Source of the DNA: Sinohyriopsis cumingii | Lineage: Eukaryota; Mollusca; Bivalvia; Unionida; Unionidae | NCBI GenBank assembly: GCA_028554795.2 | Contig: CM068842.1 | Location: 28,163,577-28,227,576, forward strand | DNA length: 64,000 bases | Direction of reading: 5' to 3' | Part shown: positions 1-11,420 of the stretch, in pieces | Numbering within the stretch: position 1 is the first letter of the stretch | Layout: each line of letters starts with the position of its first letter | Notes under the pieces: model-generated | Databases searched by the model: none | Told to the model about the DNA's origin: nothing | The model's input: the letters and a program-made list of their open reading frames with translations, nothing else | Made by a program: the position numbers and the translations under genes

Positions 1-175
1 ATGTTTATGTTCGATCAAACGTTTGACGAATTCGGTTTTGCCTGAACCGCTAGGTCCAGCAATGAGCATGTTAAAGGGATGGCGAAGATACAAAGCCTCC
101 CAACTGGCACGATCTAAGTGTTCGTCGATGACTGACAGTGGAGGAAGAGGGAGCAGAGACAGCAGAGGTAGCCAT
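1..175 (-). pseudogene. P-loop (packaging-type) ATPase, N-terminal part, truncated by window edge
   Basis: The minus-strand frame ending at base 1 reads HPFNMLIAGPSGSGKTEF, with a Walker A motif (GPSGSGKT) in the hydrophobic-strand context typical of viral packaging or other P-loop ATPases. The ATG that suits the upstream TATA box (175) opens a different frame (MATSAVSAPSSST). A one-base indel around 130-150 therefore separates start and Walker A, or the real start lies elsewhere. The Walker B and arginine-finger regions are off-window, so the subfamily (FtsK/HerA A32-like or another) cannot be settled. It shares the strand of the next five genes. In Polintons an ATPase of this class powers genome packaging. 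Confidence 0.65.
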
Positions 176-220
176 AGTGTTAGGAATGTCACTTGTGACA
201 CGAAAACAGACAAGACAAGA

Positions 221-229
221 GTTTATATA
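221..229 (-). promoter_or_regulatory. TATA box of the ATPase gene
   Basis: Reads GTATATAAAC on the minus strand, about 46 nt upstream of the ATG at 175. The following TCTTGTC also occurs after the TATA box of the CCHC gene (6583-6590), which suggests a shared initiator context. Confidence 0.6.
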
Positions 230-244
230 CTTTTTCAGGACACG

Positions 245-250
245 TTTATT
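245..250 (-). terminator. AATAAA polyadenylation signal
   Basis: A minus-strand AATAAA lies just after the stop of the 258-935 gene and 16 nt before the TATA box of the next gene. Cleavage would fall inside the next promoter, a sign of tight viral packing. Confidence 0.55.
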
Positions 251-257
251 GAATGTT

Positions 258-935
258 TTAAACATGAACACGAAAGACAAAAATACATAAAAGCCAAAGG
301 CCTAAGTACAACGATAAAAGGCACATGATAACCATCAACGTGGAATAAACACAAGTGTCTGTACAACATGTTTTGGGTAATGTTCTGACCAGTTCTATAG
401 GGGGTAAGGTCACACAAGTGCCCTCCCGAAAGGGTCTTTCAGGCATGTCCACGACAGTCCTGTCCTGGGTGACGGGTTCTTTTTCCTTGAACAACTCTCG
501 TGCATACTGGGCCACTTCTTGGGTCCAAGCCTCAAAACCCCCTTTTCCCAGTCACGGACATCTGTCCAATGGGGGTGTCACAAGCTACACACACATCGTC
601 ATACACGTCTTCGGTAGCTAAAAGTTGACGAATCTTTTTTTCCCGTAGAGGTCGAGAAGTATCCAGATGAAAACGCAAGGCTTTGAGCAAAAGGAGTCTT
701 TCGTGACCATTTAAGGCCATTGGGGTGGTAAGTACTGTTCGTAAAGAGTCCACAAGGAATCGGCTGGTAAACGAAATCCCAGAAAACAAGTCACTAAGAC
801 ACACACCACTTGTCGACCCAAATTGAATGGATACAGTTCTTGTAATAATCGATGGTAATGATCCACGGTTTGAATATGGTCACTGAGTTCCTTCCACGGA
901 ATCTGTTCAATTACATGTGACATAAGCCGTGGCAT
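258..935 (-). pseudogene. Unknown element gene, frameshifted twice
   Basis: Three overlapping minus-strand frames follow one another: 935-711 (begins MPRLMSHVIEQIPWKELSD), 804-532 (contains a C-x2-C pair, DDVCVACDT) and 515-258 (begins near MAQYARELFKEKEP). Their joins fall at homopolymers, including AAAAGGGGGTTTT near 535-545, so this looks like one former gene of about 225 residues with two indels. The last frame ends in a strongly hydrophobic segment (MCLLSLYLGLWLLCIFVF) that could be a membrane anchor, or could be frameshift product. The start overlaps the end of the upstream F-box-like gene (907-935). Helix-rich and not recognised; it may be a diverged relative of its two upstream neighbours. 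Confidence 0.5.
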
Positions 936-1398
936 GGATTCCTGATTTTATAGTCTCTTTGTTTCGGAAGCAATAAAGGTACTTTATAACTAGACATCTT
1001 TGTTCTCCAGTAGGGAATCTAAATCTTGCATACTGTAACCGAAACGTCAGAGTTTGTCTAGATGTTTCGTCTTCCGCTAAGCAGATTCCACGTAAAATAT
1101 GTTGGTAATCCTTTAACTCGTCTTCCTCAATACGTTGCACTAGGTGAATCTCGAAGTAACCAAAATTACGAACGTTTAGTTCATTCACTAACTGAAAGTG
1201 TTCAACAAGGTCTGACCACTGAAACAATTTCTGACGAATCAGTCCTCTTATACCATTCAGGTACCAGTGGTTAAAGATCTGGTGACGTAACGGATGCAAC
1301 TGTTCTTTACGTTTCACTTGTATTTTGACCAGCTCTCGGTAAATGCGTTCTCTCAACTCCACAGGCAAAGCACGAATGTTCTCTTGTAAAGTATCCAT
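907..1398 (-). CDS. F-box-like protein 1
   Basis: 163 residues, minus strand, open throughout. Residues about 8-27 read IRALPVELRERIYRELVKIQ, resembling the F-box core (LPxEL...IY). The rest is predicted to be helical, with no further domain recognised. It lies 7 nt after F-box-like protein 2 and shares this N-terminal motif with it, so the two look like tandem duplicates. Known F-box proteins recruit Skp1-Cullin ubiquitin ligases, and several large DNA viruses use them to degrade host factors; that role here is inference. The match is short and degenerate, so a plain helical protein remains possible. Unlike the polymerase, this gene is unbroken. Confidence 0.5.
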   Translation of the reverse strand: MDTLQENIRALPVELRERIYRELVKIQVKRKEQLHPLRHQIFNHWYLNGIRGLIRQKLFQWSDLVEHFQLVNELNVRNFGYFEIHLVQRIEEDELKDYQHILRGICLAEDETSRQTLTFRLQYARFRFPTGEQRCLVIKYLYCFRNKETIKSGIHATAYVTCN

Positions 1399-1405
1399 GA
1401 ATAGG

Positions 1406-1813
1406 TCAGTCCGTACAATTCACAAATCTTCTCCTAGAGCAAAAGTAATCCACATAGTGAGTAATTTCTGACCACTGCCATTCAGGGTAACGTCCAAGAA
1501 TGTCATTGAACTCTTTTGATGTAAACGGTCTAGAGTAAAACAATAGGACGAATGCACACTTGACCCAGAGAAATCTAACACACTGGTTGATTTTTTTCAC
1601 TTTCCTCTTATGAATTTCTCGGCACAAAAGTTCTACAGTCACCCATTGCGATTTCACTCTGGCAAACCCTTGCCAAACTTCCTTGTAAATCTTCTCTTGC
1701 AGTTCTTTAGGTAATGATTCAATATCGTTTTTGAAATGAAGTTTAAATACCGGTCTCGGTGATGTCCAACATTTGATTCCTAGCCAATCTGGTCTCTTCC
1801 TCGTCAACGACAT
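1406..1813 (-). CDS. F-box-like protein 2
   Basis: 135 residues, minus strand, unbroken. Residues about 30-50 read NDIESLPKELQEKIYKEVWQ, the same LPxELxxxIYxE pattern as the downstream neighbour. The first 30 residues are basic and contain two tryptophans. The gene sits between the BIR gene and F-box-like protein 1 with 11 and 7 nt gaps, as expected for an operon-like viral cluster, although no separate TATA box was seen. Family assignment rests on the motif and the paralogy, not on a full domain alignment. A role in ubiquitin-ligase recruitment is inferred. Confidence 0.5.
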   Translation of the reverse strand: MSLTRKRPDWLGIKCWTSPRPVFKLHFKNDIESLPKELQEKIYKEVWQGFARVKSQWVTVELLCREIHKRKVKKINQCVRFLWVKCAFVLLFYSRPFTSKEFNDILGRYPEWQWSEITHYVDYFCSRRRFVNCTD

Positions 1814-1824
1814 GGTAAGTTACT

Positions 1825-2136
1825 TCAATGTCTCGGTCCCACTAAGGGTAAGTAATGACAATTCGGTGACCAACGAGCATGTTCTAGGTAGGCCAAATCT
1901 TGCGGTTCCCAGTGGTGAAGTGACACAACGCAACTGAAGCACTTGACTTTATCTCCTTCGCCCAAGTAGAAAAATCCGGCTCTGGCTAATTCTTCGGGGG
2001 TCGGGCTTCCCAGATACTTAGGCCATTTTCCTTTGAACGATTGAAGACGATTTTCAAAGTCGCAGTATTCCGACAAACGCACAGGAAACGAATATTCGTC
2101 TTTCACAGGTTCGTTTCGATGAGGGTTGGGTGACAT
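1825..2136 (-). CDS. Single-BIR inhibitor-of-apoptosis-like protein
   Basis: 103 residues, almost all one baculovirus IAP repeat. Residues about 18-98 carry the family pattern: an arginine with an SF core (RLQSFKGKWP), the ARAGFFYLGEGDKVKC strand, then CFSC, WEPQD, EHARWSPNC and a histidine. This supplies the CxxC...H...C zinc ligands. No RING or CARD follows, so it is a minimal one-BIR form. BIR proteins bind caspases or IAP antagonists and block apoptosis; small BIR proteins are known in several invertebrate DNA viruses. An upstream ATG at 2196 lies in another frame across a run of six C, so an indel may have removed about 20 N-terminal residues. The BIR fold itself looks intact. Confidence 0.85.
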   Translation of the reverse strand: MSPNPHRNEPVKDEYSFPVRLSEYCDFENRLQSFKGKWPKYLGSPTPEELARAGFFYLGEGDKVKCFSCVVSLHHWEPQDLAYLEHARWSPNCHYLPLVGPRH

Positions 2137-2196
2137 GGACAGGAGTTTGCTCAGGGCTGGATGACATCCGTAGGGGGGCAGACGTGAAAGTGAACA

Positions 2197-5100
2197 TTAA
2201 CCTTTAAAACGAAACCCAGTAAAGTGTCCAAGAGGACGAGCGGCATCGCCTTCGGATCCCTTAGGTTTGACACGCACAGCATCACTTTCCATGATAGGGT
2301 TAGTGAGAACAAAGTTCCCATGACGCTTTACGGCATCGCTAAGGTCACAGCGTACAGCATCGTTCCCATCGCAAGGCTCACAATCGCATTTCACTTCATA
2401 AGTCCCACACTTGCATTGTGCCTTTCTAAACTTGTTTTGTGTTTCTCTGAAAGTATTCATCTTGTTCGCTTGGTCTTGGTAGTCACAATGATCTTGCCTA
2501 CGGTTCCTTTTTATATACAGACCAATACCGACGTGTCCATACGGTAAGGTGAAATGATTGGGAAGTCGCACTCGCTTCTGGTACACGATTTGATAGACTT
2601 TTTCCAAGGGTCGACTGACGATGTGGTGAGTGGGTAAACGTACAATCTTGTTGGGTTGATAGGTGGTCACTTTAAAGTGTTCATCCTCTCCAGATTGCAA
2701 GGCTTCTTTCAATACCCCAAAGTTGACCACACGACTGGTACGATAATTCAGAGTCAATCCTTTCACTTTACACTTCGTGTGCACTTCTCCTTGTGGGTCC
2801 CGGTATTCGTAGCCGTAATTTTTGGGACCGCCACTGAGGAAACTTAGAATCTTGTCGTCGGGATGCTCGTCTGTCCAGGCTCCTAAACGGTCTCCATCGA
2901 TGTCAGGGTGCTGTTGACTCGGGTGATGAATGTAAATGCAACTGTCCATATGAAAGTTCAAGTTCCCCTAACAGTTCTAAAGCTTCGTACAATTTTAAGC
3001 GAGCATGAGCTGTCACGTAAGCCGCAATGATGACATTTCCAGAAGTGTTGTCTTGTACAAAGTCCAGATCTTCTTCGTAATTGACCAAGATCAAATCCTC
3101 GCGAACGACGTCCACGTGCTTCATGAATTTGGTTTTGTCGCGAATCATCTGAAAGTAGCGGGAAGGTTCTGTCAAATACGTTGTGCCATTTTACCCCACA
3201 AGCAATTTAACATCACTTTGGCAAACGATCGCCTGCCTTCGTTTTTCTCGATGTGATCTAAAGTAATGCCTTCTTGTGCCCAGTATTTCTCTTTGAATGT
3301 CTTTTGGTCTTCGGGAGTGTGACACCAGGAAGGATAGCCACTGGCTTCTTGTTTCAGTTTCAAAAAGGCATCCACGTAGTGCCTTTCTGCGTGGGGTCAC
3401 CTTTGTGGTATTGTTGTGTCTTGGGAAAGTGACAAATTTCGTACACTTCTAACAGTTGATATGCCATGTCCAGAGCTTTGAACAATTCTACGCTGACCCA
3501 GGTTCCCGTCAAAGCCCGTTCTTCCTGGGTGTGCTGACAAGGCTGATCTTGGTTGCACGTTTCGGCTCAAGTATGGCACAAAGGAAACATCAGTTTGCCT
3601 TGGCAATGGTGAGGTAAGACGGCATGGTACAAGTCCTTGGGAGGCAAAACTTTGCACTTGATCAAGCCTTCGTATTGTCGAATGTTTTTCAGGTCGATGT
3701 GTTCCGTGAACAATTGTGGGTGCCCTGCAGGAAAGCGACAATATTTGCATACGTAGGGATACAGCGAACACATGTCCAAGTATTTGATTTCTTCTCCTTT
3801 CTCTTCGTCAGCTTGGTACAGCAAACAGGTGGCATTGGTCCTTCCTCCGTACAAACTATCCCTTGGGTTCAGGGGGTCCATGAACTGGTAACTTTCCACG
3901 AGGCGTTTAAATTCGGGATCAGTTTTCAAACGGTGATCGTATTCGTGTTCCCACATTTCCACCACTTGGTATCCTTCCTGTTCTGACTTTAGGCGTCGCT
4001 GACAAGTGTCCTGGTACAAGTCTTCCATGGTTCGTTGTAAAAACTGATTTTTAGTGCCACGGTCACGGTAACAGACGGGACATCCGTGAAATAAGCAACC
4101 GTTAAACTCGTACACGATCTTGGGGTTTTCTAAGTCTCAGCCATCGACCGAATGCGTTCCGATGGTCTTTTCGCCCCCTCCGTTGCGGACATGCTGAATC
4201 CATTTGTCTTCCTTGTCGCACAAGTAATGTAACCAGCGTAGGGCTTTGACCGAGTATTGACGTTTGACATAGTTGGTCGATTGAGGACTGACGACAGCTA
4301 CGGTGTTTTCAGGCATGAATCGTTGCCGGTACACTAAGGAACACGCTTTGGCAATGGTGCAAGCTTCTTTCAAAGGATCGACCCCTCCGTGTTCCATGAA
4401 CAGTTCTCGAAATTTTCCACAGCAACGTCGTAAAATGTCCACTTCGGAACGACAATACTTTAACATTTCTTCCTGAAAGTCGAAAGGGTCCGAGGCGTGA
4501 GCCTGGTACCAAGCGTAGAAAGCTTCTCGTTGTTCGGTACGCATGTTGTCGGGGTCGTAATAGTGAGCCTCAGGTAAATCGGGTAGAACGGCGTGTTGAT
4601 TGACTTCCGTATTGAAAAAGTGTGGAAAGTACCCTTGAGCCATTTCTGTCATTCCAAACGTTTTAGGCATTCGGCTCAAAGGCATGGCCAAGTAACTCAT
4701 CGAATCTTTAAACTGTACTTGTCCCACTTGCATGAAAATGATTTTGGCTCCGTTCAAAGTCACTTTAGGACGCTCGGTGCCTTGTTCCGTATAGTATCTC
4801 AAAAGAAACTGTCCATCGTATCCGGAGAAATTGTGAGCCATCACTGTGGCATGACGATGACAATCTCCGTAACGTTCGATGTCCTCTTGGCTCCACGTCT
4901 CGTCGATGGGGTTTAAGACCCATTGTGCAAAATCGGCTAACGTGTTCGGTCCCCGAAAGATTTTTTCACGCCCTCCGGGAATCTTGCTGCAGTGAGGGCA
5001 ATGACTGAAAATAGGTTCTTGAATGCACTTCTCGCACGCTCGATAAGCTACGCAGAAATTAGGAATGCGAATACCGGTCTCTTGCATGCATTCTAAATCG

Positions 5101-6511
5101 AAAAAGATGAAATTGCCTTTCTTCTTGTGTCTATCCTCTTTCTTTGGTGGGGGTTGGTATTTTTGCACGTAGCATTGGTGTTCCAAGTCCACGATGTGGT
5201 GACAAATGTGACATTTTTCTTTCCTCGACATACGTGTGCCTTGGCATTATTGGTACATATGCCTTGTCCACACGTAGGGCACAATCTCAGGAGTTGACAA
5301 GCACATTTCTGCTGTGAACCTTGCGTCTTCAGATGTTGGTAACAGGCAGGGCTGACAAACGTGCGCAGACAAGCAGGACAGTGCACTGGTTCTTGCACTT
5401 CGCTCAGACAGGGTGGAGAGGCCAAACATCTTGAGCATTTCGAGCCACAATGCTTGTGTTGCTCTCGATTATTATAACCATGGTCACATTTCTCACAATA
5501 ATAAACATATCCCAGGAATCCGGTAATACTGGTAATGGTATCGAAATGGTCATCGTGATGATAGACATGAATGTATTTTCCATCCTTAAAGTCTTTCCCT
5601 CGAAACAACAGAGGCCCGCGCATTTCTTGAGGGTGCACTTTCAAGGTGTCGCATGGAGCTAGGGCATCTTGCAATGTTTGCATTTCAGGAATGCCACAGG
5701 GTATGTCTTTGGACAGGCCGGCTTGTTGTAACAGGACTTCTGCTTCACTTCGTTGTTTGGCTTGGTCGGATCGTTGAATAGTTTTCCAGGCTCTTTTCCA
5801 TTCTGCCGTGTCATTCTTGTTAGCATAGGTTCGTCCCACCACGATGGCACGGGCTAAACACATCTGGTCTTGAGGGTTGTGAATTCGGACGAGACTTGTT
5901 TTGGTGCTGCGAAGGTCGTTCACCAATAAGATCTTTCTGCGGCCAGTCCCTTGAGGAGGAGAGACGTGGGTCATGTCCAATGTGGCTTTTCCATCGGTGA
6001 TGTCAAACTGGTCGTTGGATTGTTGCACGTGTTGAATCTTGTCCATGACTTTGGAAGCGATCAATTCTGCAGGGGTGCTAAACTCGATCCAAACAGGGGA
6101 TTTCAAACCGTCGTGTTGTATGGAAAGTCTCAAGCGATCGTCTTCTTTGGGTTGACATTGTCGCTTGAGTGTGGTGAGTAAAGAATCCCACACCCCGGTG
6201 ATGAACCCTTCTGCTTTCTCTAACGGTGCTTCGGACTTGAAATCTTTGAACTTCACCGTGTATTTGTAAGCCGTGGTTCTAAATTTTCTAGAGGAGCGCT
6301 TTTCTGTCTCTCGAATGTCATAGGACTTTTCAGGGTTAACTAAGGGTGGTGAACTTTGTTTAGAGGGTTTGGATTCTGGTTCACTCATGTCCTCTTCAAA
6401 ATCACTGGCATGAATTTGTGCCAAGACTTCAGCTCTGGTACGAGGCGATAGATCACGTTTCTGCCTCTTACTTTCTTCTTCTTTCTTCTCAAATGAATTG
6501 GATCGTTTCAT
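2197..6511 (-). pseudogene. Family B DNA polymerase (protein-primed Polinton type), broken
   Basis: About 1,400 codons. The first ~450 carry many Cys/His pairs (YYCEKCDHGY, CPTCGQ) and the IHNPQDQMCLARAI block typical of animal Polinton-type polymerases. Then come the exonuclease motifs: FDLE (~5105), HNFSGYDGQFLL (~4820) and YCRSEVDIL (~4440). Polymerase motif A is DMCSLYP (~3760) and motif B is KVMLNCLWGK (~3200). Breaks: frameshift near 5240, TGA at 4137, TGA at 3567, frameshifts near 3380 and 3178, and an indel near 2950 that destroys motif C (family consensus YxDTDS). The C-terminus after 2961 is open and ends in a cysteine cluster (KCGTYEVKCDCEPC). The enzyme would have replicated the element from a protein primer. 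It is inactive as it stands. Confidence 0.9.
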
Positions 6512-6552
6512 CTTGAGTGAAAAACGTCAAATGACTAAAATTTAAACAGCAT

Positions 6553-6590
6553 GGACTAATTTATAGTCCTGGCAGACCAGTGTATATAAA
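6553..6590. promoter_or_regulatory. Divergent promoter between polymerase and CCHC genes
   Basis: Two TATA boxes point outwards: TATAAATT on minus (6558-6565) inside the near-palindrome GGACTA...TAGTCC, and TATATAAAA on plus (6583-6591). The starts are at 6511 (minus) and 6646 (plus). The plus side continues to TCTTGTCC, as downstream of the ATPase TATA box. Confidence 0.6.
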
Positions 6591-6645
6591 AGGGTGTGTG
6601 TCTTGTCCTTTCACTATTCATTTCACTCTCTAACCGAGCACAACG

Positions 6646-7092
6646 ATGGAAGAGACTAGCCAAATCGAACGTTTCATCAGAGCTTTGCGAGTTTTCATTA
6701 GAAAATTTTGTTCAGACCAGCCTTCGGACTACTCTCCTTCTTTTCGAGATAAAAGTCAAGATACTTGCTATATCTGTCAGAAGAAAGGGCATTGGTCTTC
6801 AGAGTGTCCAGACCGTCAAAAAAGAAAAAAAGGGGCTAGAAAAGACAAAAGTCAAGATACCTGTTATTATTGTCAAGAAAAAGGACATTGGTCTCCAGAT
6901 TGCCCAAAAAAGAAACAAGAGAAGTCAGAAGAAGAGAGGGATTCTTCAGAAGAAGAGAGGGATTCTTCAGAGGAAGATAGCAGCCAGGTAAAGAAAAAGA
7001 AACAGGAGAAGAAAAGAAGAAGGGAAGAAAGTGAGGAGGAAGAGGAGGAAAAGACTGTGACGGTGAAGACATTTAAAAAACAGAGAGACTAA
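6646..7092 (+). CDS. Double CCHC zinc-knuckle protein
   Basis: 148 residues, intact. Residues about 45-58 (CYICQKKGHWSSEC) and 75-88 (CYYCQEKGHWSPDC) are two CX2CX4HX4C knuckles, each preceded by the same DKSQDT. The knuckle unit looks duplicated. The C-terminal third is a charged tail rich in Glu, Ser and Lys, with a direct repeat of EEERDSS and basic KKRRR stretches that could act as nuclear-localisation signals. CCHC knuckles bind single-stranded nucleic acid; retroviral Gag and CNBP-type proteins use them. There is no Gag or protease domain, so this is probably a stand-alone nucleic-acid-binding protein of the element. It is the only plus-strand gene in the left 7 kb and has its own TATA box and AATAAA. 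Confidence 0.75.
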   Translation: MEETSQIERFIRALRVFIRKFCSDQPSDYSPSFRDKSQDTCYICQKKGHWSSECPDRQKRKKGARKDKSQDTCYYCQEKGHWSPDCPKKKQEKSEEERDSSEEERDSSEEDSSQVKKKKQEKKRRREESEEEEEEKTVTVKTFKKQRD

Positions 7093-7173
7093 ACAGTGAG
7101 ACAGAAGAAGTGAATGTACTTTTTAAAGTGCTCTGTTGTGAATTGTGAATTGGATTGTAACTATTGATAAAAG

Positions 7174-7179
7174 AATAAA
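7174..7179 (+). terminator. AATAAA polyadenylation signal of the CCHC gene
   Basis: AATAAA lies about 80 nt after the stop at 7092. A 21-T run follows at 7219-7239. Confidence 0.6.
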
Positions 7180-7264
7180 TTAGGTATAAAAATATACACG
7201 TACTATAGAGGTAAAATGTTTTTTTTTTTTTTTTTTTTTGAGTTATTGGCAATTGAAAATCTAT

Positions 7265-7301
7265 CTCTTTTCGAGAGAAGTGGGTGGCCCTGAAAAGGGC
7301 C
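7265..7301 (-). terminator. Histone-type mRNA 3' stem-loop plus downstream element
   Basis: On the minus strand, GGCCCTTTTCAGGGCC (7286-7301) forms a perfect 6-bp stem with a TTTC loop. It is preceded by CCAAA and followed by ACCCA, which together match the SLBP-binding consensus of metazoan replication-dependent histone mRNAs. About 11 nt later comes CTCGAAAAGAG, like the purine-rich histone downstream element that pairs with U7 snRNA. It starts 26 nt after the stop codon of the coiled-coil gene. No AATAAA was seen between that stop and the stem-loop. Confidence 0.85.
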
Positions 7302-7326
7302 TTTGGTTTTTGGTGTAGGGGTGAAT

Positions 7327-7869
7327 TTAAGCAATCAACTTTAACTGCCTTAAGCCTTTGCCACGGCCGAGGCCTACTTCTGATGATGATGATTTGGTTG
7401 AAATCACTAAGGGTGGTACGGTAGGCTTAGTCACAGGGTTGGCGTGTTTAGCTCGGGAAGGTCGTATTCTCTTCGGTCGTGATAAAGAAGTCTGATACAT
7501 TTGTTTCAGACTTCTTAACTCCGCTAAAATGTCTAACAGTATCGTGACCGTTTGATTTTCACCCTCTTGTTTCTTTGCTGCTGCTTCTTCTTGTTGTTGT
7601 TTTTTTCTTACCTCTTCTTCTTGCTGTAAAAGAAAAGCCTGTTCCGCTTCCTTTTGTCGTTGTATAAATTTCTCCAATTCTTCTTTCTGTCTCTGTCTAA
7701 AATTCTCCACGTGTGGTAATGAAGGTGACGAAGGTTATGGAACAAATTCTTGCGAGGTAAGAAAATCCACAAAATCCCAATTCACCTCTTCTGAAAGTAA
7801 GTCCGGGTTCCCTTGGGTAGTCTCCACTGCTGGTGCACCCCAATTAATCGTTTTCTGAGTTTCCGTCAT
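7327..7869 (-). pseudogene. Coiled-coil, basic-tailed protein with histone-type 3' end
   Basis: The start is taken as MTETQKTINWG at 7869, about 50 nt from the TATA box; the longer open frame to 7929 runs through that TATA box. About 180 codons, interrupted once by an in-frame TAA at 7735-7737; the frame continues on both sides. The N-terminal 45 residues are acidic with tryptophans. The middle is a Gln/Glu/Lys coiled coil (RQRQKEELEKFIQRQKEAEQ), then a short helix (ILLDILAELRSLKQMY), a basic stretch (RPKRIRPSRAKH) and a Gly/Lys-rich C-terminus. It is not a recognisable histone. The basic tail and its histone-like expression signals suggest a DNA-binding or virion-core role, which is inference. 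Confidence 0.6.
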
Positions 7870-7914
7870 GTTGAATAACTGTCGCATGGATTGACAGCGC
7901 ACAGGCGCTAGCGA

Positions 7915-8046
7915 ATCTATATAGACCACGTGACGTCACAGACTGTTCTCTTCGGATTGGATGCGAGCTGACTGAACTTTGTAACGCGTGTTTGGATTGG
8001 TCAATGAACTCAATCCGTTTCAATCCTTCCTCTACCTATAAATAAG
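7915..8046. promoter_or_regulatory. Divergent histone-like promoter
   Basis: A minus-strand TATA (CTATATAG, 7918-7925) and a plus-strand TATA (TATAAATAAG, 8037-8046) lie about 115 bp apart, facing outwards. Between them are an E-box CACGTG (7927-7932) overlapping the CRE palindrome TGACGTCA (7931-7938), and two GGATTGG inverted CCAAT boxes (ending 7960 and 8000). Paired TATA and CCAAT boxes in a short bidirectional spacer are typical of histone gene pairs. Confidence 0.65.
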
Positions 8047-8127
8047 CGCAGTTCACTGCATTGATTTACCTGTTCTCGTCGCCTCAGCATGTGAATTGAC
8101 GTTGAATCTTCCACCCTTGTGTCAACA

Positions 8128-8319
8128 ATGATGTTCAGGACGGACATACCGATGTATGTCCGATCCGAATGGACAGTTGTCCATAGGACTGCCAGCAACC
8201 TATGGATACGTAGGATTTACGTGGAGAGGCGAGGATGCCTCAAAAGAGTCCCGATTTACGGTCCTACAGTGAGACGAAGCCTAAGGACAAGAAGAAGTCA
8301 CAGATGCCCTTTATATTAA
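8128..8319 (+). CDS. Small arginine-rich protein with histone-type 3' end
   Basis: 63 residues from the ATG at 8128, about 80 nt after the TATA box. A minimal ATG-TGA uORF lies at 8089. Fourteen of 63 residues are arginine, in clusters (IRR, ERR, VRRSLRTRRSHR), with only three acidic residues, resembling protamine-like or small viral core peptides. The stop at 8317-8319 lies 20 nt before the histone-type stem-loop, a normal spacing for a histone mRNA. A second frame (8235-8417, MPQKSPDLRSYSETKPKDKK) overlaps the 3' half, so an indel may have changed the original C-terminus. No homologue recognised. DNA condensation is a guess from composition. Confidence 0.5.
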   Translation: MMFRTDIPMYVRSEWTVVHRTASNLWIRRIYVERRGCLKRVPIYGPTVRRSLRTRRSHRCPLY

Positions 8320-8338
8320 GGGCATATATAAACCCAAA

Positions 8339-8378
8339 GGCTCTTTTCAGGGCCACCCACATTTCTCGAAAAGAGATA
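8339..8378 (+). terminator. Histone-type mRNA 3' stem-loop plus downstream element
   Basis: GGCTCTTTTCAGGGCC (8339-8354) forms a 6-bp stem with one T·G pair and a TTTC loop, flanked by CCCAAA and ACCCA. TCTCGAAAAGAGATAGA follows at 8364, the same downstream element as on the minus-strand partner. Identity with that partner continues for about 12 nt past this element (TTTCAATTGCC). Confidence 0.82.
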
Positions 8379-8395
8379 GACTTTCAATTGCCTAC

Positions 8396-8707
8396 CTCTT
8401 TTTATATTTTTTTTTAGTTTTTTAAAATAGGGTCCCGACCCTGTTCCATTTCCCCTAGTCCCTAAACAGTCCCACGATCAATTCCCCATGTTCAATTTCC
8501 CTTGTCGCTAGAGTGACCCAACAATTTTCCCCATCTTAATTTCCCTTGTCGCTCAACAGACCCACGATTTATTCCCATGTTAATTTCCCTTGTCGCTAGA
8601 GTGACCCATGATTTTTCCCCATGTTAAATTTCCATTGTCGCTAGAGTGACCCAGAGGGGTCTGTAATGCTAATTCCCATTGTCGCTAGGGTGCCCCACTT
8701 CACTACT
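8396..8707. repeat. Terminal region of the element with 45-bp tandem repeats and ACT end
   Basis: After a T-rich tract come about five imperfect copies (8445-8695) of a ~45-bp unit built on CCCATGTTAATTTCCC and TTGTCGCTAGAGTGA. The last unit runs into CCCCACTTCACTACT. Read inwards, the end is AGTAGTGAAGTGGGG, consistent with Polinton termini. This is probably the right terminal inverted repeat; the left partner is off-window. AGCGAG at 8708-8713 is the expected 6-bp target-site copy. Confidence 0.65.
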
Positions 8708-9480
8708 AGCGAGTAAAAAGATTTAAAATGTTAAACGAGTTTCAAAAATATGATTTTGAATAAGCCCAAATGTAATATGTCCCTCATTACATAATCAAAA
8801 ATGTTGATTTCTATTTGACCAACTACAAAATATTGTTTTGGAATTAATTTAAAATACACCCAGAATAGTAGGTAATTTTGCTTTTACTCTGATAAATGTT
8901 ACAAATAGAAAAATATGATATGGGTATATTAACATTATATATAGTAAAGCCAACATTTACACCCACTGTTAACTTTGTACTTATTTTGTAGAGTCCATTC
9001 TCTGAAAACAAATCTCCAAGTAACAAATTACACGCGCATTTTATATATCATTACATATACTAAAAACTTACCAATTATCATATAATCTATTTGTACTGCT
9101 GTTCCTTTAAAATATTAGCAATACAATTAGCCCTTTATACCGTATATAAGGTTTTATTGTCGTTTGAGGTATTTGTGACACGGAAAGATGCCTGATCAGG
9201 TGTCATTTAATTTGAAACCATTTTTGTTTGAATGTTTGTTTTGTTTTTCATTATTTGCACATCTTTATTTAAGGTCTATTATAAACTGGATATAATGCTA
9301 AACAGAGAAAATGTATACCGTATAGCTATTTACGCTATCTTAGCATATTAATTTGTTATTGCACAATTCCATCAAAGAACAGGAAAATGTTAATATATGC
9401 TTCTGAAGTGTAGGGAAAATGTTCTGTTGAAGATTCGGAAAGATTAGAGATAAATTGAAATAGAAATCGACTCATTTATT
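8708..9480. repeat. Dispersed repeat R1, copy 1 (interrupted by the Polinton)
   Basis: Begins AGCGAGTAAAAAGATT and includes ATATGATATGGGTATATTAA and a distinctive segment with CCAACATTTACACCCACT. It aligns along about 700 bp with copies at 10.62 and 28.35 kb. The roughly 80 bp preceding this point in those copies is missing here and replaced by the element end. No coding potential. Confidence 0.75.
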
Positions 9481-10620: not shown

Positions 10621-11420
10621 TTTTAAATGAAATTAATGAAACGAATTATGTATATATCTTGCGAGATTTAGCGAGTAAAAAGATTGAAAATTTTAAAAGA
10701 ATTTCATTAAACATGATTTTTATTGAGACCAATGTAATATTTCTTTTATCACATAATGAAAAATAGTGATTTGTGTTTGATGTAACTACACATTATTGTA
10801 TCGAAATGACTTTGAAATACACTCAGATGCGTCGGTAATTGCGCCTTGATCTTATATCACATCATGTCGTCATTTGAGAAGTATTACAAATACAAAAATA
10901 TGATATGAGTATATTAACATTCATATATAGTAAATCCGGCATTTGTGCTCACACGTACATTTTACATTTTTATGAGTTCATTCTCTCTCAAAGAAAAAAC
11001 CATGTAACAAATCGCAAACGCCTTTTATACATCATTGCAAAAAACTAATTACATGACAAATACCATATGATCTATGTTTATTGCTATTCCGTTAAAATAA
11101 TAGCAATAAAACCACTCCTTTGTGCCCTATATATGGTTTTACGTTTTTCGTATTGTTTAGACCCAGATTAGTGTATCATTGCCCCTTGAGCTGTTGTTCT
11201 GCTTGATGATGGTGTTGTTTACCTTGACGTCACGTTTGTTTGCTTATTTGTTTTTCATTAGTTGTACGTCCTTATTATAGTCTGGATATACTGTTCAACA
11301 GAGAAAACGTGTACTTTATAGCAGTTAAGGTAATTTAGCATAGTGATTGAGTTATTGCATAATTCCATAAAAAAAACCAGGCACGATATAAGATACACAA
11401 ATTTTGATATAGAAATCTCA
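10620..11420. repeat. Dispersed repeat R1, copy 2
   Basis: Starts AAATGAAATTAATGAAACGA, runs through TTGCGAGATTTAGCGAGTAA (the empty version of the Polinton target) and keeps the order of copy 1, including GTATATTAACATT and the TTTTCATTA...GTCC segment near 11,250. Confidence 0.75.

Follow-up and report, generated by a model that had tools for sequence, protein, structure and literature searches.

Histone-type 3' end signals on five terminal genes of a Polinton in the genome of Sinohyriopsis cumingii

Why should genes of a mobile element that do not encode histones end in the way that histone genes do? This question is raised by a stretch of 64,000 nucleotides of Sinohyriopsis cumingii (contig CM068842.1, positions 28,163,577 to 28,227,576 of the forward strand; hereafter the window), whose left part belongs to a Polinton. 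An initial annotation of the window had noticed a complete histone 3' signal behind the two genes next to the right end of this element, and had proposed that the element coupled two small, basic, possibly core or packaging proteins to host DNA replication. We found that the signal is complete behind both genes and that two genes were too few, since five carry it. From the sequence evidence collected below, these five genes near the ends of the Polinton are very probably expressed as mRNAs that imitate those of replication-dependent histone genes.

To look at the two right-end sites, we scanned all 64 kb with Rfam 15 (cmscan). Exactly two matches exceeded the gathering scores, and both were to the Histone3 family (RF00032, curated cut-off 34 bits). 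One lies behind a leftward gene, called L here, and the other behind a rightward gene, R, so that the two genes are divergent. All parts of the signal were present at both sites: CCAAA, a 6-bp stem, a TTTC loop, ACCCA and then CTCGAAAAGAGATAGA. The stems read GGCCCT/AGGGCC and GGCTCT/AGGGCC, the latter with one G-U pair. The stem begins 26 nt past the stop codon of L and 20 nt past that of R, the distances first annotated. When 56-nt stretches were folded as RNA, the stem formed at both sites, with z-scores of -2.80 and -1.82, the second being unremarkable by energy alone. Both sites also lie in an inverted repeat of 63 nt, one in each arm, and the arms are 92% complementary. A chance origin of the stem-loops is ruled out by the Rfam E-values and by reversed-pattern controls, which gave 0 occurrences in the 2.9 Gb of the host genome (1,138 contigs).

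We then asked to what the two genes belong. After 10 kb and a further 1.3 kb had been added leftward, the ends of the element could be placed exactly, giving a Polinton of 18,788 bp (G000:C19:28153496-28172283). Its terminal inverted repeats (TIRs), which run AGTAGT...ACTACT, measure 372 bp on the left and 380 bp on the right and are identical in 366 of 380 alignment columns (96%, 8 gaps). The element is flanked by a 6-bp target-site duplication, with the junctions ...TTTAGCGAG to AGTAGTGAAG on the left and CTTCACTACT to AGCGAGTAAA on the right. A family B DNA polymerase was recognised by Pfam on a single open reading frame (ORF) piece (DNA_pol_B_2, 50.8 bits, cut-off 25.8). Two further matches, both in the left part of the Polinton, stayed below their cut-offs: an integrase on a single ORF piece (rve, 26.6 bits, cut-off 32.6, E 7.5e-6) and an adenovirus-type protease (Peptidase_C5, 17.0 bits, cut-off 21.3, E 0.0049). 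Also above their Pfam cut-offs were a BIR domain and two zinc knuckles. A 440-aa ORF where the capsid gene is usually found had no capsid match in Pfam, and no packaging ATPase was identified among the ORFs scanned, to which the search was confined. The mobile element is a Polinton, as the initial annotation had held. The block that carries L and R lies within the TIR and target duplication, and no core histone was found by tblastn in any of 48 loci of the same kind described below; a fragment of a host histone gene or histone cluster is thereby ruled out. The products are not histones either, as no Pfam family exceeded its cut-off for any of the five proteins.

The three other genes lie at the left end of the Polinton, beyond the window, and all run leftward: B2 (188 aa), B1 (102 aa) and B0. 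The window's Polinton thus carries five histone-type 3' ends, three at the left end and two at the right. The stem-loops of B2 and R stand at the inner edges of the two TIRs, while those of L, B1 and B0 are outside the TIRs. Among 17 selected ORFs of the window's Polinton, the five terminal genes have a stem-loop 19-29 nt past the stop codon and the other 12 have none. Conversely, AATAAA or ATTAAA is found within 150 nt of the stop in none of the five, and is present for the protease, integrase-piece and zinc-knuckle (CCHC) ORFs. The layout recurs in most of the intact ORFs among the copies, at 18-36 nt overall: the distance from stop to stem was 19-27 nt in 17 of 18 for L (143 nt in the last), 19-24 nt in 29 of 30 for R (7 nt in one; 28 loci), 25-36 nt in 10 of 13 for B1 (one at 86 nt, two without a stem-loop), 18-23 nt in four of five for B2 (one without) and 27-28 nt in both for B0.

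A single-copy artefact is ruled out by two samples of loci from the host genome. In a genome search with RF00032, all 75 scored sites, out of 589,472 first-look candidates, exceeded the cut-off. The first 48 of them were all Polinton copies, comprising, by their genes, 32 right ends and 16 left ends, and a second stem-loop was present within the fetched stretch in 46. Since these loci had been picked by stem-loop score, a second sample was picked by the L protein, for which 150 matches were scored of 22,270 candidates. All 12 loci taken from these matches, the window copy included, carry both the L and the R stem-loop. Among these 24 stem-loops, 20 are fully paired, the remaining four contain one or two mispairs, and AAAAG starts at 14 nt in 23. 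This second sample is not broad, because its 12 loci are those most closely related to the window copy. Exact stem-loops were counted over the whole genome in two spellings, AAAGGCCCTTTTCAGGGCCACCCA (13,226) and CAGCCCTTTTCAGGGCTACCCA (14,695), making 27,921 in total, with none for the reversed patterns. Therefore, the Polinton family must have thousands of copies.

To see whether the stem-loop is kept, we collected 115 candidates from the 48 loci, the window and L049, the stretch with the left end of the window's Polinton, with a pattern allowing up to four substitutions; 67 of them are not the sites by which their locus was selected. All six pairs are intact in 55 of the 67, and AAAAGA follows downstream in 65. 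At the bottom pair, 36 have G-C, 25 A-U and one G-U, and five are mispaired, so that in these sequences the pair shows compensatory change between G-C and A-U. As judged from the aligned copies, the stem-loop varies less than its flanks, and the contrast is sharpest at the TIR sites: for the 16 non-selected ones, the mean identity between pairs of copies reaches 0.985 within the stem-loop, against 0.85-0.92 over ACCCA plus the following 40 nt and 0.42-0.71 in the flanks. The spacing of the purine element is nearly fixed as well, with AAAAG starting 14 nt past the stem in 107 of the 115 sites and 15 nt past it in five (it was not found in three). The sequences GAAAAGAGATAG and TAGAAAAGAAAT are candidates for pairing with the host U7 snRNA. 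A further conserved stretch, CAATTGCC or ATTTGCCAAT, was seen about 42-60 nt from the start of the stem, beyond the purine element, in three classes of Polinton sites; by eye it resembles the region downstream of host H2A, and it is possibly part of a processing or termination signal.

The 3' ends were compared with those of the host's own histone genes. Histone H4 gave 114 matches in the host, mostly within a tandem unit of about 8.3 kb. One such unit (L063) contains H4, H2B, H2A, H1 (by eye) and H3, with one Histone3 match of 35.0-39.4 bits after each, and AAAAG stands 14-15 nt past the stem in all five. The host stems are of the same type as those of the Polinton, but are followed by ACA, ATA or ACT and not by ACCCA. 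Therefore, the Polinton signals are not a fresh copy of host histone genes. In ten stems, five from the Polinton and five from the host, every one of the 60 cells is paired, and at two pairs both partners have changed, although the sequences are few.

The likeness between the left end of the Polinton and the host histone unit extends outside the 3' ends. A box, GGGATGTTTTCCWTCACGTCCGCGC, stands upstream of B2, B1 and B0. From GATG on, it is identical to the upstream region of host H2B and differs from that of H1 at one position; in one alignment, 24 of 24 bases are common to the Polinton left end and a host histone gene. A diverged reverse copy of the box lies in the vicinity of host H2A, and B1 additionally has the host H4 box TTTCTTTTAGGTCCGCGCGTT. 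In the Polinton, TATAAA or TTTAAA follows the proximal box after 6 nt and the ATG follows after 62-66 nt, a figure that takes the Met codon 44 of the longest ORF as the start of B0. In the host, H2B has a TATA 29 nt past the box and none was found in H1. The box was present in 15 of the 16 left-end loci, L032 being the exception; it is absent from the 64-kb window, which covers none of the left end. Over the whole genome, we counted 30,300 exact boxes and none in the reversed control. Within the histone unit L063 the box occurs at 774, 4173 and 8207, and the 30,300 boxes, which far outnumber those of the histone array itself, are presumably almost all in Polinton copies. The box, by its ...CACGTCCGCGC, resembles the vertebrate H4 Site II, or HINFP site, and its binding by HINFP is putative. 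In a table of one study (PMC3771687, in which the signs for the direction of the effect are illegible), HINFP knock-down affects H4 expression and the occupancy of NPAT at the H4 promoter.

We also looked at the encoded proteins. The L gene is interrupted in the window copy, and intact L copies are present elsewhere. The idea that both right-end proteins are basic stood for R, with 17 K+R against 5 D+E, and failed for L, a coiled-coil protein with 26 K+R against 24 D+E in the L002 copy and so not net basic. A core or packaging role found no support. Pooled ratios of nonsynonymous to synonymous substitution rates (dN/dS) were 0.44 for L, 0.15 for R, 0.25 for B1 and 0.18 for B2, whereas a shifted-frame control covering R and B1 gave 1.19 and 1.82 for R and spanned 0.88-1.82 for the two together. 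By this measure, four of the five genes (L, R, B1 and B2) are under purifying selection. Structure models were weak, both for L (predicted local distance difference test, pLDDT, 67.4; predicted template modelling score, pTM, 0.25) and for B2 (pLDDT 63.6, pTM 0.44); L is predicted to have a long helix and a basic stretch, and B2 to be all-helical at low confidence. A conserved acidic-hydrophobic stretch at the N-terminus of L, NWDxVDFLSSQEFVP, and a basic one, PKRKRPSRAK, flank the long helix, and the arrangement is by eye reminiscent of a transcription regulator. Elsewhere, L has 17 homologues (from 125 candidates, 59-85% identity), known only as proteins. No homologue of R, a short query, was found in the protein collection; a PHROGs search gave nothing convincing and a PDB sequence search with the polymerase piece gave nothing. 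In a viral contig collection, the exact stem-loop pattern occurred 0 times, and no relative was found by the polymerase piece, the L family or the 440-aa ORF. That the five terminal genes are possibly early or regulatory is our guess from their position.

Altogether, coupling to host DNA replication, as first proposed for L and R, is the best reading of these data, and the histone promoter boxes on three further genes strengthen it. The transcripts of the five genes are most likely S-phase, non-polyadenylated mRNAs made by the host histone machinery. Host histone transcription factors would read the box during S phase. SLBP would then bind the stem-loop and the U7 small nuclear ribonucleoprotein the purine element, and the transcript would be cut after ACCCA and left without polyadenylation, as the completeness of the signals suggests; histone pre-mRNA is cleaved 5 nt past the stem, at ACCCA (PMC6303110). 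By analogy with histone mRNAs, the products would build up only during DNA replication and disappear when replication stops. The outcome would be that the terminal genes, possibly early or regulatory, are confined to the time when Polinton DNA can be copied. We consider it possible, though as a tentative extension, that the full histone programme of box and 3' end would make the Polinton an ectopic site like a histone locus body, with early genes active in S phase only and tens of thousands of boxes that compete with the host histone genes.

Several observations weigh against expression of this kind. The 48 loci are a biased sample, with the other 27 of the 75 outside it; the stem-loop evidence comes from one host species, the L relatives elsewhere being without DNA context; and the non-selected sites were found by a four-substitution pattern, so that lost sites are uncounted. 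One of the 48 loci (L027) has no recognisable second stem-loop and another (L032) has neither a second stem-loop nor the box. The frames without a stem-loop up to 200 nt past the stop amount to two of 13 for B1 and one of five for B2, and in L008 the B2 frame continues through the stem-loop. Of the 12 other ORFs, nine carry no stem-loop and no poly(A) hexamer. The contrast in conservation is weak at 23 L sites (stem-loop 0.93, flanks 0.69-0.92) and intermediate at 27 B1 and B0 sites (0.95 and 0.56-0.89), and TIR recombination, which can homogenise sequences, may help to keep the outermost pair of stem-loops. The distance from box to ATG, 62-66 nt in the Polinton, is 84 nt in host H2B and 82 nt in host H1. 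The promoter between L and R lacks the box, and S-phase transcription of these two genes is therefore argued from their 3' ends only. Finally, neither U7 snRNA (Rfam) nor SLBP (Pfam) came over threshold in the host; both negatives are weak, with 65 of 801,960 candidates scored for U7, 14 of 14 scored for SLBP with introns ignored, and silent controls in each search.

The alternative that survives best is that the histone signals serve maternal or early-embryo expression and not S phase as such, the mRNAs being stored in the oocyte and used in the cleavage cycles, when the germ line can be reached. This would draw on the same sequence evidence as S-phase expression. A special control of maternal histone mRNA has been described (PMC12803260), and the exact stem-loops and boxes, which number in the tens of thousands, show that amplification in the germ line worked. 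We nevertheless hold it to be rather unlikely as a separate explanation, as it overlaps with S-phase expression and the promoter boxes, of H2B, H1 and H4 type, match the host tandem histone array. The sheer numbers raise a second alternative, a decoy or sponge that titrates host histone transcription factors, SLBP or U7, or draws a compartment like a histone locus body: the genome contains exact boxes 30,300 times and exact stem-loops, in two spellings, 27,921 times, as against 114 histone H4 matches. Boxes and stem-loops nevertheless stand at the correct positions of genes and so look primarily like working regulation, with any titration following from the high copy number; the decoy is thus improbable as the primary role. 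Still less probable is passive baggage, that is, ends of host histone genes that were captured and spread with the Polinton without functional use. In its favour, the box is found in host histone genes too, along with stem-loops much like those of the Polinton; the outermost stem-loops belong to TIRs, where homogenisation can occur; and the island of conservation at the L sites is weak. However, five different genes carry the signal on the correct strand and at a similar distance each, the TIR sites show a conservation island, compensatory change and fixed spacing of the purine element are seen, and ACCCA in place of the host's ACA, ATA or ACT speaks against a fresh copy. Lastly, a hairpin that serves the TIR as a DNA or RNA signal for replication, packaging or integration would fit its place at the inner edge of both TIRs and has almost no likelihood, since the stem-loops of L, B1 and B0 are found beyond the TIRs, directly behind stop codons, which rules out a pure TIR signal.

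The coordinates of the features are collected in Table 1.

Table 1. Features of the Polinton in the window and, for its left end, in L049.
Feature	Position	Strand	Remarks
Polinton, right-hand 8.7 kb	1..8707		remainder left of the window; basis: TIR alignment, target duplication, PolB domain
Zinc-knuckle (CCHC) gene adjoining the cassette	6646..7092	+	AATAAA/ATTAAA 81 nt past stop, no stem-loop (contrast)
L-gene histone 3' end	7261..7306	-	RF00032 39.2 bits, E 5.5e-8; CCAAA, stem-loop 7301-7286, ACCCA, AAAAG 7271-7267
L gene, coiled-coil protein	7327..7869	-	one frame, pieces 7738-7869 and 7330-7710, in-frame stop 7735-7737; pooled dN/dS 0.44
L/R divergent promoter region	7870..8127		TATATA 7918-7923, TATAAATA 8038-8045, several ATTGG (CCAAT); no left-end-type histone box
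R gene, 63-aa basic protein	8128..8319	+	76-77 aa in L002 and L003 (longer N-terminus); pooled dN/dS 0.15
Right TIR, 380 bp	8328..8707		terminates ...ACTACT; inner edge = R-gene histone stem-loop
R-gene histone 3' end	8334..8379	+	RF00032 36.5 bits, E 5.7e-7; CCAAA, stem-loop 8339-8354, ACCCA, AAAAG 8369-8373; inside TIR
Target-site duplication, 6 bp, AGCGAG	8708..8713		second copy directly left of the Polinton
Left-end Histone3 match, left TIR (B2)	L049 285-240	-	42.5 bits
Left-end Histone3 match (B1)	L049 1299-1253	-	33.9 bits, just below cut-off 34
Left-end Histone3 match (B0)	L049 2142-2096	-	33.3 bits, just below cut-off 34

Some further observations concern the element and its surroundings. 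The BIR (inhibitor of apoptosis) domain lies in an ORF at window 1825-2136 and scored 84.3 bits. The right TIR contains, at 8494-8697, five copies of a 27-nt core of the AATTTCCCTTGTCGCTAGAGTGACCCA type, spaced by 44-45 nt. The G+C content per kb is 0.40-0.48 in the first 8 kb of the window, 0.32 at 9-13 kb and up to 0.42 elsewhere. Pieces of the right flank (window 8707-9326) are repeated about 2 kb further on (window 10669-11322). The second copy of this flank repeat reads TAGCGAGTAAAAAG, with a single AGCGAG, and therefore resembles an unoccupied target site. The N-termini of B1 (L049 1324-1632) and B0 (L049 2166-2528) look similar by eye, and the two genes may have arisen by duplication. 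In 16 shared loci, the median synonymous divergence (dS) was 0.10 for L and 0.90 for R, as if L and R, though adjacent, did not share one history; candidate causes are gene conversion, mosaicism of the copies or constraint acting on L.

How does this Polinton compare with known systems? With other Polintons or Mavericks and with adintoviruses it shares the TIR starting AGTAGT, the 6-bp duplication, the family B polymerase and perhaps, by matches below the cut-offs, an rve integrase and an adenovirus-type protease; it differs in the histone-type 3' ends and histone promoter boxes of its terminal genes. What is new is the regulation, the Polinton itself being ordinary. With metazoan replication-dependent histone genes, represented by the host array, it has in common the stem-loop, the purine element at 14-15 nt and, for the left-end genes and not for L and R, the promoter box; here, in contrast, the products are non-histone, the genes lie in a mobile element, ACCCA follows the stem and the ATG comes 62-66 and not 82-84 nt past the box. 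In adenoviruses, early regions likewise lie at the genome ends beside inverted repeats, which makes a likeness in terminal genes with a possible early role; adenovirus early mRNAs, unlike those proposed here, are polyadenylated. Bracovirus H4 is a further case of a virus with a histone gene. The 'Histoid' genes of adomaviruses and tailtomaviruses also show viruses exploiting the histone system, but there the protein is histone-like and here only the regulation is (PMC11071296). A term search found no stem-loop in that paper or in PMC11071308. In PubMed Central (PMC), outside which most subscription journals lie, we found no report of a histone stem-loop with a Polinton, a transposable element or a non-histone virus gene. 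Among the papers listed, titles and the beginnings of abstracts likewise gave no such report for RF00032, SLBP, U7 or the histone downstream element (HDE), or the histone locus body together with viruses or Mavericks, nor for Polintons together with polyadenylation; PMC1794435, which joins RF00032 with a virus, is by its title and the start of its abstract not on this subject. According to the abstract of PMC6303110, histone mRNA is the only known metazoan mRNA of this stem-loop-ended kind.

S. cumingii thus harbours a large family of virus-like genes with the complete histone signal, in thousands of genomic copies, and with a matching promoter box on three of the genes. This suggests a direct route by which a DNA element may tie itself to the S phase of its host. 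The A-U bottom pair and ACCCA in place of ACA could be taken as natural experiments on the specificity of SLBP and U7. If the genes are expressed as proposed, RNA-seq on poly(A)-selected RNA would miss them, and in animals they would make up a class of stem-loop mRNAs that encode no histone and carry no poly(A) tail.

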